Origin: Xenococcus sp. MO_188.B8
Lineage (GTDB): Bacteria; Cyanobacteriota; Cyanobacteriia; Cyanobacteriales; Xenococcaceae
NCBI GenBank assembly: GCA_030065615.1
Contig: JASJDR010000018.1
Coordinates: forward strand, 1 to 64,000
Direction of reading: 5' to 3'
Length of the DNA stretch: 64,000 nt
The notes beneath the pieces are model-generated. The model did not search any database and was not told where the DNA came from. It worked only from the letters and a program-made list of their open reading frames with translations. The position numbers and the translations under genes were made by a program. The first letter of the stretch is position 1; every line of letters begins with the position of its first letter. Positions 17,401 to 56,542 of the stretch are shown here, in pieces.

Positions 17401-18294
17401 ATGAAGAGAAAAAAGCGAAATCGTTTTAATAAGTTGACCGGGGAACACCGGTCACCGCAGGCACCGTCGTCTCTTGGTGCGCGTTCCCTAGGTCGGGAGA
17501 CCCGACCGGGGTCGCACCGCTTTTACGGCGGTGTAACGGTGACTCCTTGGCTGGCAATATTGGCCATTTTAACTTGGAGCGCTTTATTATTGAACTATGC
17601 GGTAACTGGTCAGTATAAATTACTAATCCATCCTAATTATTTCTATTTAATGCTTGCTAGTAGTATTTGTTTATTGTTGCTCGGCATATTTCGTAGCTTA
17701 TTACTATTCAATTCTCCCCCAAATCAAACAGAAAAAAATGAACATATTACTTTGTTTCCTCCTGGTTTCGGAAGTCTCTTATTACTACTAGTCGCGATCG
17801 CAGGTTGGCTAATTCCCCCCAATGTTCTCAGCAGCACCGCCGCCTTACAAAGAGGAGTCGCTGAGACTTTACCTGCTACTAATTCCCAACCTCAAGCCTT
17901 TGTCACCAGTATTAAGCCCGAAGAGCGATCGCTTATAGATTGGGTCAGAACTTTAAATGCTTATCCTGAACCCGATGCTTATCAAGGGCAGCCAGCTCAT
18001 ATTACTGGATTTGTGATCGATCTACCCGAACTTCCCGACAATTACCTATTTCTGGCTCGTTTTATTATTACCTGTTGCGCGGTAGATGCCTACCCCGTCG
18101 GAATTCCCATACAATTGAATGATCCGCAAAAAAAATATCCCCCCGATACTTGGTTAGAAATCACAGGAAATATGACTACTGCTACTTTGGCAGTTCGCGA
18201 TCGCACTGAACAAATTCGGGAAAAACGGCAACTAGTTGTCTCCGCAACTACCATTAAACCAATTCCGACCCCTGCTGATCCCTATGGACATTAA
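17401..18294 (+). CDS. TIGR03943 (YcgQ-like) membrane protein with in-frame repeat insert
   Basis: A 297-residue protein partnering the preceding permease. After the N-terminus there are membrane helices near residues 48-70 and 76-98, a third near 118-135, and a C-terminal soluble domain with PAHITGFVIDLPELPDNYLFLARFIITCCAVDAYP (given here in parts) that identifies the family. Residues 14-48 are foreign: they are encoded by a 105-bp GC-rich repeat (17439-17543) flanked by TGAC. Removing those 35 codons restores MKRKKRNRFNKLT joined to PWLAILAILTW, which is a normal start for the family. The insert has no stop in this frame and is Arg/Gly/Ser-rich. A GTG at 17538 could also serve as an alternative start, avoiding the insert. 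Confidence 0.88.
   Translation: MKRKKRNRFNKLTGEHRSPQAPSSLGARSLGRETRPGSHRFYGGVTVTPWLAILAILTWSALLLNYAVTGQYKLLIHPNYFYLMLASSICLLLLGIFRSLLLFNSPPNQTEKNEHITLFPPGFGSLLLLLVAIAGWLIPPNVLSSTAALQRGVAETLPATNSQPQAFVTSIKPEERSLIDWVRTLNAYPEPDAYQGQPAHITGFVIDLPELPDNYLFLARFIITCCAVDAYPVGIPIQLNDPQKKYPPDTWLEITGNMTTATLAVRDRTEQIREKRQLVVSATTIKPIPTPADPYGH
17435..17543 (-). repeat. 105-bp GTCA-flanked nested-hairpin element inside a gene
   Basis: TGAC at 17435-17438 and TGAC at 17540-17543 bound a 105-bp element, oriented opposite to the one at 35907. Read on the minus strand it carries the outer stem GGTGCG/CGCACC, the spacer ACCCC, an inner hairpin GGTCGGG/CCCGACC, TAGGGAACG and AAGAG. Its ends are the same as those of the copy at 35907-36011, and both are exactly 105 bp long. 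It sits in the coding sequence of the TIGR03943 gene. Confidence 0.9.
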
Positions 18295-18319: not shown

Positions 18320-18508
18320 TGACGCTTGCGCAGCTCTACCCAAAGGGTCTCGACCCTGCGCCGTTGCACGGCGTTTATCCAGAGCACCGATCTGTTTACC
18401 CAGCTCCGTGTTCTGGGGACAAGCCCAGCTCCGTGTTCTGGGCTAAGGAAGCGGTGGAAGCCCGCGTCGGCGTAAGACGCAAGGGAATGTCCACCAAGAT
18501 ACGCGCGA
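18320..18508. repeat. Mosaic of dispersed GC-rich repeat modules
   Basis: It begins with GACGCTTGCG and GGTCTCGACCCTGCG and continues with a 72-bp block (18373-18444) that recurs exactly at 24899-24970. It ends with a module whose outer stem GGTGGA (18453) pairs with TCCACC (18490) around the inner hairpin GCGTC/GACGC (18464-18480). The same spacer words as in other modules (GGGAATG before and AAGA after the closing stem) are present. Open frames reading through it are artefacts. Confidence 0.82.
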
Positions 18509-24667: not shown

Positions 24668-25189
24668 AATCCTAACGAGGAAACTTTATTAATAGATATT
24701 AATCTATTAATTAATACTACATTTTATTTACTTCAATAATTGTTATTTATTCATCACTATTTTGGAGTTGAAGCGGGTCCGTGAAGTGAAAACTGGAGTT
24801 CTGAGAGAAAGGAGTCGGGAGCCAAGAGTTAGGCGTTTCAGGTTCAAAATATTGACATTTTTGAAAACTAGCGGTCGGACCCCGCGGAGGTTTCCTCCGT
24901 TTATCCAGAGCACCGATCTGTTTACCCAGCTCCGTGTTCTGGGGACAAGCCCAGCTCCGTGTTCTGGGCTTTGTAAGCAGCTAAGGAACGCGCACCAAGA
25001 GAGGGGTTTCAAAAAAGTAGATGCGGTTTGACTACAATATTGTTTGGGATGCAGTAGTCAAGAAAGTTTCTGCTCTTAATATTAAAATCAAAGGTATTTC
25101 AAAAAGGCTTAAAAAGAAGGACTAAATAGTTTAAAATTTCTGCTATATTTTCTCCTGTAGCTAGCAAATCTAATGTTTCTTCAAAGCAA
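24668..25189. other. Gene-free stretch containing a repeat mosaic
   Basis: Between the exoprotein and the anti-sigma gene. The stretch around 24868-25003 is the GC-rich repeat mosaic described separately. No gene is supported; open frames on both strands come from the repeat. Confidence 0.6.
24868..25003. repeat. GC-rich repeat mosaic sharing a 72-bp block
   Basis: Module start AGCGGTCGGACCCC, inner hairpin CGGAGG (24885-24890) / CCTCCG (24894-24899) with a TTT loop, then the 72-bp block found also at 18373-18444, then GGAACGCGCACCAAGAG. Opening stem GGTCGG and closing CGCACC do not match, so it is a recombinant or decayed copy. Confidence 0.8.
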
Positions 25190-35607: not shown

Positions 35608-35665
35608 TTTGGGCTATTTTAACTAAGTTTATCATCGTTTATCTTAAATTTAACTGGGGTTCCGC

Positions 35666-36035
35666 CCATTGAAGACTCAGGGCTGAAGGATTGACTTTTA
35701 ACTTCTACCTTTATTTGATGTTATAAAACTATTCCCAAGTCAATTATTCTAGTTAATGAAACAAATCGTAACTTATAATTCGGGCAAAACTATTGCCGAT
35801 AAACTCTTAAAATTTTACCAGGGCTCAGTCCATTGAAGACTCAGGGCTGAAGAATTGACTTTTAACTTCTACCTTTATTTGATGTTATAAAACTATTCCC
35901 AAGTCACCGTTACACCGCCGTAAAAGCGGTGCGACCCCGATGAGTTTTACTCATCTAGGGAACGCGCACCAAGAGACGACGGTGCTTGCGGTGACCGGTG
36001 TTCCCCGGTCAATTATTCTAGTTAATGAAACAAAT
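35666..36035. repeat. 100-bp direct duplication, second copy interrupted
   Basis: Copy 1 (35666-35766) begins CCATTGAAGACTCAGGGC and runs through TATTCCCAAGTCAATTATTC to GAAACAAAT. Copy 2 (35830-36035) is the same within a base or two, except that 105 extra bases follow the GTCA. Comparison gives the exact borders of the inserted element. Confidence 0.93.
35903..36011 (+). repeat. 105-bp nested-hairpin element with GTCA ends (occupied site)
   Basis: GTCA 35903-35906 and GTCA 36008-36011 flank the element (insert 35907-36011). Outer stem GTCACCG (35903) pairs with CGGTGAC (35989). The module stem GGTGCG (35928) pairs with CGCACC (35965) around hairpin GATGAG (35939)/CTCATC (35950). A terminal hairpin GACCGG (35993)/CCGGTC (36005) closes the right end. 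The empty site at 35739-35742 has one GTCA only. Confidence 0.92.
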
Positions 36036-36116
36036 TATCACTAAAATGAGCGAAAAGCTGATAGACTCTCCGAACGTTCCAGCTTTTCAATAGCTTAAGA
36101 ATTAAATGCAATTGCC

Positions 36117-36282
36117 CCTATCCCGGCACGCTTACGCCGATATGCGCTTGCGCTTGCGCTTGCGGAGCTCTACCCGAAGGGTCTGCTCTACCCGCAGGGG
36201 CAGCTCTACCCGAAGGGGCAGCGGTATCCTTATGCGGAGCGGTACCCTTTAGGGTTAGGACGCGGAGTTTGTCCACAGGGGA
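36117..36282. repeat. CGCTTGCG/TACCCGAAGG repeat block
   Basis: Tandem CGCTTGCG words followed by three copies of CTCTACCCGMAGGG separated by short spacers, then GCGGTATCCTTATGCGGAGCGG. Related blocks occur at 4290-4370, 18320-18360 and 57971-58060. The words are partly self-complementary, which suggests hairpins. Confidence 0.7.
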
Positions 36283-37511: not shown

Positions 37512-37569
37512 TGACCGGGGAACACCGGTCACGCCAGGCACCGCCGTAAAAAGACGGTGTAACGGTGAC
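37512..37569 (-). repeat. Minimal 54-bp GTCA-flanked element
   Basis: TGAC at 37512-37515 and TGAC at 37566-37569 bound a 54-bp insert with the same ends (CGGGGAACACC, GGTGTAACGG) as the 105-bp copies but without the inner module. The centre is just CACCG-CCGTAAAAAGA-CGGTG. The length difference from the full copies is 51 bp. Confidence 0.88.
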
Positions 37570-56151: not shown

Positions 56152-56542
56152 CCACTCACAAGTGTTTGAGTGGGTAAAATATTCAAACCACGAAGTTAGA
56201 CGAGCGACCCCGCGACGACGAAAGTCGCAAGCGGTCAGACCCCGCGCCGCCGAAAGGCGTTTACCCAGCTCCGTGTTCTGGGCAAGGGAATGCTGACCAA
56301 GAGAGGGAATGCGCGAGGAAGTTTTTCTTCGCTGTAGGGCAGGGCTTGCCCGAACAGGCTAGTTGCAAGACTAGTAAAAAGCGATGCAGCGCGGTCTTGG
56401 GGGTTCACCCCATGAGCGACTGCATCAAGAAGCTTGTGGATCAAGCTCTGGCGGGGGTGTGTCTTCACTTTCAATAGTGTTCTCATTTAGTCAACTTGGG
56501 ATGAAGCAAGAATCCAACGATTTGAAATCGTTGGAGTGTCAA
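56152..56542. mobile_element. IS200/IS605-type remnant without transposase
   Basis: A left hairpin CCACTCA (56152)/TGAGTGG (56167) and a right hairpin CCAACGATTT-G-AAATCGTTGG (56514-56534) followed by AGTGTCAA. GAAGCAAGAATCC...AGTGTCAA is, from memory, the usual right end of cyanobacterial IS605-family elements. No tnpA or tnpB remains can be read; the roughly 390 bases between are mostly repeat DNA, so this is at most a non-autonomous derivative. Confidence 0.5.
56204..56300 (+). repeat. Nested-hairpin module pair
   Basis: A first module GCGACCCC with hairpin GCGAC-GACGAAA-GTCGC is followed by a second whose outer stem GGTCAG (56233-56238) pairs with CTGACC (56293-56298). Inside are CGCC-GAAA-GGCG and CCCAG...CTGGG. 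AAGAG follows, as in other copies. Confidence 0.8.

Follow-up and report, generated by a model that had tools for sequence, protein, structure and literature searches.

The movement of micro-repeats of the REP, SDR and RPE types has long resisted explanation, in part since the exact edges and empty sites of such repeats are hard to obtain. The SDRs of Nostoc, which Elhai et al. described in 2008, are reportedly 21-27 nt long and confined to a subgroup of Nostoc. They are said to be tiny and structured, to show compensatory changes and to be nested in themselves and in other repeats, and RNA intermediates were reportedly proposed for them. REPs carry GTAG or CGTC tags and can sit in genes, and some are nested in other repeats (PMC3733652). 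RPEs are palindromic repeats that lie in frame in protein genes of Rickettsia, some of them belonging to the CGTC class (PMC3733652). IS200/IS605 elements use guides at the foot of a hairpin to recognise a target tetranucleotide in the flank as well as their terminal tetranucleotide (PMC6006769).

In the 64,000-nucleotide stretch of Xenococcus sp. MO_188.B8 DNA analysed here (the window; the source genome comprises 8.26 Mb in 354 contigs), a tandem repeat holds one empty and one occupied site of a small inserted element. Tandem copy 1 (35646-35791, + strand) represents a paralogous empty site with a lone GTCA at 35739-35742, whereas copy 2 is divided, as placed by alignment of the two, into a left flank that ends in ...CCCAA (35810-35902, +) and a right flank (36012-36042, +). 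When the insert is removed, the alignment of 35646-35791 with 35810-35902 plus 36008 onward contains 129 identical columns of 146, and the 83 columns that surround the junction (35689-35771) contain no mismatch. The occupied copy carries GTCA at both 35903-35906 and 36008-36011, in contrast to the single GTCA of the empty copy, and the net gain between its flanks is exactly 105 bases (35903-36007, +). The original prediction of a tandemly duplicated sequence whose second copy holds 105 extra bases is thus borne out by the alignment and its 83-bp identical stretch; all of the edges that it gave are exact, as is its count of one GTCA in the empty copy and two in the occupied copy. Just to the right of the element, at 36120-36260, CTACCCGAAGGGGCAG-like units of 18 bp lie in tandem, together with repeats of the CCTTTAGGG type.

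The insert had been regarded as a single element of 105 bp. It is real, but it is in fact two nested elements, a 54-bp element (the shell) that contains a 51-bp element (the module), and empty 58-bp versions of the shell are common. With both GTCAs counted, the 109-bp unit is composed of the 58-bp shell GTCACCGTTACACCGCCGTAAAA^CGACGGTGCCTGCGGTGACCGGTGTTCCCCGGTCA (54 bp net) and the 51-bp module at ^. The left part of the shell, GTCACCGTTACACCGCCGTAAAA, spans 35903-35925 (+) and starts with the 5' GTCA (35903-35906, +); the module occupies the shell loop (AAAA^CGAC) at 35926-35976 (+); and the right part of the shell (35977-36007, +) contains an internal, guide-like TGAC at 35992-35995 (+) and is followed by the second GTCA (36008-36011, +). 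Shells that lack the module but match this copy exactly around its insertion point are common both in this genome (L142, L152, L159) and in relatives. Modules in turn occur by themselves, nested in one another, and in the opposite orientation at another position within shells (4829-5210, L017, L020, L012). Shell and module therefore each have their own empty and occupied sites. In our reading, the 51-bp module is a hairpin element in its own right, which jumped into the loop of the shell.

BLAST matches the insert at least 47 times in the same genome; the copy counts given here are minima, as a limited number of candidates is scored in each genome. The window itself contains an empty 58-bp shell that is slightly diverged from the one above, lacks the module and has GTCA at both ends (37512-37569, -), a second 109-bp copy of shell plus module (17435-17543, -), and a 382-bp copy with GTCA at both ends in which the shell holds three mutually nested modules, opposite-strand module sequence and other repeats (4829-5210, +). 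The innermost module of this last stack lies at 4921-4971 (+), and another module lies outside any shell at 18451-18501 (+). A 52-bp shell subfamily that likewise has GTCA at both ends is present in other genomes. Two further shells (L021 and L031) have grown to 665 and 327 bp, repeat after repeat having been inserted into them, with left GTCA and right GTNA kept. Additionally, the module at 56231-56304 (+) carries a 23-bp insert in its hairpin. This 23-bp hairpin repeat, TTTACCCAGCTCCGTGTTCTGGGC, and its variants occur inside modules (74 = 51 + 23 bp) as a third, SDR-sized mobile layer, with sites at 56231-56304 and 24870-25002 of the window and at about 4060-4200 of L048.

The target of the shell was examined in 67 distinct insertions from this genome and its relatives. 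The check that had been proposed, whether GTCA flanks all copies, gives GTCA in 66 of 67 insertions on the left, but on the right only 53 of 67 have GTCA, and the rest mostly have GTAA or GTTA. The 14 right departures comprise GTAA (7), GTTA (4), GTGA (1) and two others, 12 of them at the third base, and the difference between the two sides (1/67 left, 14/67 right) is significant (Fisher p 0.0005). The base at -1 is a purine in 65 of the 67 insertions, and that at +1 is A or G in 63 (57 with A, 6 with G). Empty sites, in the tandem paralogue as well as in ungapped orthologs, have the tetranucleotide position once and never duplicated. Such orthologs were found for several copies: the empty site in G014 opposite G000:C83 has GTCA once; the empty sites opposite G011:C176 in four genomes are ungapped and read GTCA in two and GCAA or GCCA in the other two; the same-genus genome G001 is ungapped opposite G000:C344 and reads GCGA; and the same-genus ortholog of the copy at 17435-17543 runs without a gap through ordinary protein sequence across the site.

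One locus distinguishes the two tetranucleotides directly. L078 (genome G021) has GTCA on the left but GTTA on the right, and in each of four orthologs the empty site is GTTA or ATTA. A second differing locus, with GTAA on the right and CTAG in the ortholog, is consistent with a target-borne right copy. On comparison of these sequences, the right tetranucleotide is that of the target and the left is that of the element, the decisive evidence being this one locus with its four orthologs together with the copy statistics, in which the left GTCA stays near-invariant though the target varies. GTCA had been suggested to be either a sequence-specific target or a part of the element; it is both, one copy of each. 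Target-site duplication would yield two identical copies, and it is rejected on the left/right asymmetry (1 versus 14 of 67) and the L078 orthologs. Insertion of the shell is thus, as far as the sites compared indicate, site-specific and without target duplication.

The same observations bear on two other origins. If the shell were a MITE, moved by a DDE transposase that duplicates 4 bp of target and prefers GTCA, this would account for the GTCA present at both ends of most copies and for a small, non-coding, repeated element. However, the shell has no terminal inverted repeats (its ends are GTCACCG.. and ..CCCCG), the left and right tetranucleotides differ systematically, and at L078, where empty sites are GTTA or ATTA, the right copy is GTTA but the left is GTCA, which makes this origin improbable. 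An origin without mobility, by tandem duplication, inter-repeat recombination or hairpin-templated repair, would fit the position of the element in one of two tandem copies and the scrambled repeats of some copies. It is very improbable in view of the exact insertions at unrelated sites in many genera, the constant target rule and the ungapped empty orthologs; as a general explanation it is refuted by the exact insertions and these orthologs.

The stems and the nested hairpin module that had been noted in the insert are supported by folding, which surpasses shuffles, and by the occurrence of the module as a separate dispersed repeat. The insert folds as RNA with -50.6 kcal/mol (z -5.3 versus shuffles), and as DNA with z -3.9 versus shuffles. 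Double-sided changes are present in 12 of 16 pairs of the module, with a covariation score of 0.557 versus 0.144 for shuffles and at most 0.12 for slid controls, in an alignment (A1) for which pairing of the outer stem was one of the selection criteria, so that this helix is inflated. When modules are selected by motif alone, with the three variable stem positions left free, they are of the same kind, all of 51 bp except those with further inserts. For the shell, the covariation score is 0.149 versus 0.044, and four pairs have double-sided changes. The internal TGAC pairs with the 5' end of the element, and covariation is seen in this helix. Its pairing with the target is mostly conserved, and the 3' hairpin that would hold the target has little covariation beyond shuffles. 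In three copies with an altered left end (GTTA, GTCG and GTCG), the internal TGAC is altered to match (TAAC, CGAC and CGAC), and two of these copies (L174, L334) retain the right GTCA. Since this TGAC is paired to the 5' end of the element and is able to pair to the target as well, it probably acts as a guide.

The strong, length-conserved secondary structure with compensatory changes would also suit an RNA route, in which the element is copied from a structured transcript, insertion is the work of a reverse transcriptase or of reverse splicing, and TGAC pairs with the target as an RNA guide; the lack of linkage to the Y1 transposase genes examined agrees with such a route, as does the nested insertion of small elements reported for Nostoc SDRs. 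However, G-U pairs are very rare, being found in 5 of 488 paired cells of the module and 6 of 437 of the shell, which is no less compatible with pairing of DNA and which we take to favour, mildly, pairing at the DNA level in both elements. Additionally, an Rfam search of the window and the element gave nothing but a tRNA and, below threshold, a microRNA family, and no Rfam family matches shell or module above its gathering score. The RNA route is considered unlikely.

Single-strand transposition of the Y1 type is put first because the geometry of the opposite strand matches that of IS200/IS605 elements. In the proposed mechanism, to which we give about even confidence, shell and module are nested, non-coding and non-autonomous micro-elements, and the shell, starting with GTCA, would insert immediately 5' of an R^GTNA-R target, GTCA being preferred, with neither target-site duplication nor terminal inverted repeats. 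This would leave GTCA at both ends, the left from the element and the right from the target. The internal TGAC, 5' of a small 3' hairpin, would pair with the 5' end of the element and could pair with the target, so that the two ends could share a single internal guide. On the complementary strand, insertion would occur 3' of TNAC with the element ending in TGAC, and the folded single strand would be excised and inserted in trans by a transposase of the HUH/Y1 type. The shell resembles IS200/IS605 elements in the lack of terminal inverted repeats and target-site duplication, the fixed tetranucleotide retained in the flank, the fixed terminal tetranucleotide, the subterminal hairpin and possibly the guide-like complementarity (rules of PMC6006769). 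It differs in that it is 58 bp in all and has one putative internal guide for both ends; this single guide and a hairpin that abuts the target also set it apart from the IS608 type.

With regard to the enzyme, no shell ends were found beside the approximately 29 Y1 loci examined (in G000, G006, G011, G008, G009, G021 and G024), among which no transposase element shares the ends of the shell, and no ORF bounded by shell ends, as expected of an autonomous element, was detected within 6 kb in the DNA examined. Since none of these Y1 transposases is linked to shells, the enzyme is one that we infer. Genome G008 has at least 16 shells yet two weak Y1_Tnp matches only. The Y1-like proteins of G008 and G024 (L234, L235, L316) are all divergent, 180-200 aa long and barely match PF01797. 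The original hint at IS200/IS605 or REP-like systems is upheld in geometry, while membership in either stays putative.

Mobilisation of the shell as a REP by a RAYT, with GTCA at the hairpin foot as a variant of the GTAG/GTRG tag, would explain the tetranucleotide 5' of a hairpin, the high copy number and the intragenic copies, all features of REPs (PMC3733652, PMC6006769), and shell-bearing genomes do have divergent Y1 proteins of RAYT length. However, the tag is GTCA (66/67) rather than GT[AG]G or CGTC, none of the examined Y1 genes is flanked by shells, and the description of REPs in these two papers does not include a fixed tetranucleotide in the far-side target. This origin is doubtful, and a little more so than the RNA route. 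Like REPs, the shell is a small palindromic repeat whose hairpin bears a tetranucleotide tag at its foot, and the two also share a high copy number, an occasional intragenic position and nesting, but the shell has in addition a matching tetranucleotide in the far-side target. Like the RPEs, it is palindromic and inserted in frame in real genes; in contrast to them, it is cyanobacterial, has another sequence and has a defined target, GTNA. Both shell and module share with Nostoc SDRs, as these are reported, a tiny size, structure, compensatory changes and nesting, whereas the present elements are 51 and 52-58 nt long and occur in Xenococcaceae and many other families. Shell and module appear to be of the same kind as REPs, RPEs and SDRs, but are not filed as members of any, because they differ from these repeats in tag, size and target rule.

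The module model (R1) detects modules in 26 of 27 genomes of the family and in 81 of 342 Cyanobacteriales genomes, representing 36 of 136 genera; named carriers are Xenococcaceae MAGs, Waterburya and a Crocosphaera MAG. The shell model (R2) detects shells in 46 of the 342 genomes, from 21 genera. No match to the element was found in plasmid and phage collections, and no shells were found at four loci from named organisms (L097-L100).

The original prediction overlooked that both shell and module are inserted in frame into genes. Coding insertions were defined by ORFs of at least 130 codons with at least 20 codons on each side. With the flanks joined, 27 shells lie inside ORFs; the frame runs across the element to an unchanged stop in 24 of these ORFs, and the net length is a multiple of three in 26. 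Among the initial 67 insertions, 16 of 18 coding ones are in frame versus 26 of 49 others (Fisher p 0.009). The hosts of shells include a CheA-like kinase, an ABC transporter, a Ser/Thr kinase and a FIST-GGDEF protein, as judged from the Pfam domains of ten hosts. The copy at 17435-17543 lies in frame in a DUF1980 gene (17401-18294, +), where it adds 35 residues after residue 12 that are absent from the same-genus ortholog. SPLHRRKTTVPAVTGVPRS is an example of an inserted peptide predicted from the reading frame. Shells of two genomes (L008, L335) lie in frame in a similar HATPase-domain stretch of hybrid histidine kinases. Modules in ORFs read through in 18 of 20 cases, and several of their host genes are, from the translations, TnpB and other transposases. 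At L089, L106, L110, L114 and L128, the module is inserted in frame, at several different points of TnpB-like genes and also in a further gene that resembles a transposase; such insertions suggest that the module may hitch-hike on transposons.

For the shell, the edges, the target rule and the origin of each tetranucleotide, from element or target, can be read from orthologous empty sites, which makes the enzyme and the guide idea directly testable. Tentatively, and with limited confidence, the shell may be a self-addressing element of approximately 54 bp, in which one tetranucleotide pairs with both its own end and the target, and which with the modules would form a widespread class of guide-paired micro-elements in cyanobacteria, inserted in frame into proteins. 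If so, altering the internal tetranucleotide would retarget the shell. The in-frame peptides of 16-35 residues, and longer ones, in kinases, transporters and transposases suggest that micro-elements are a widespread source of added protein sequence in cyanobacteria.
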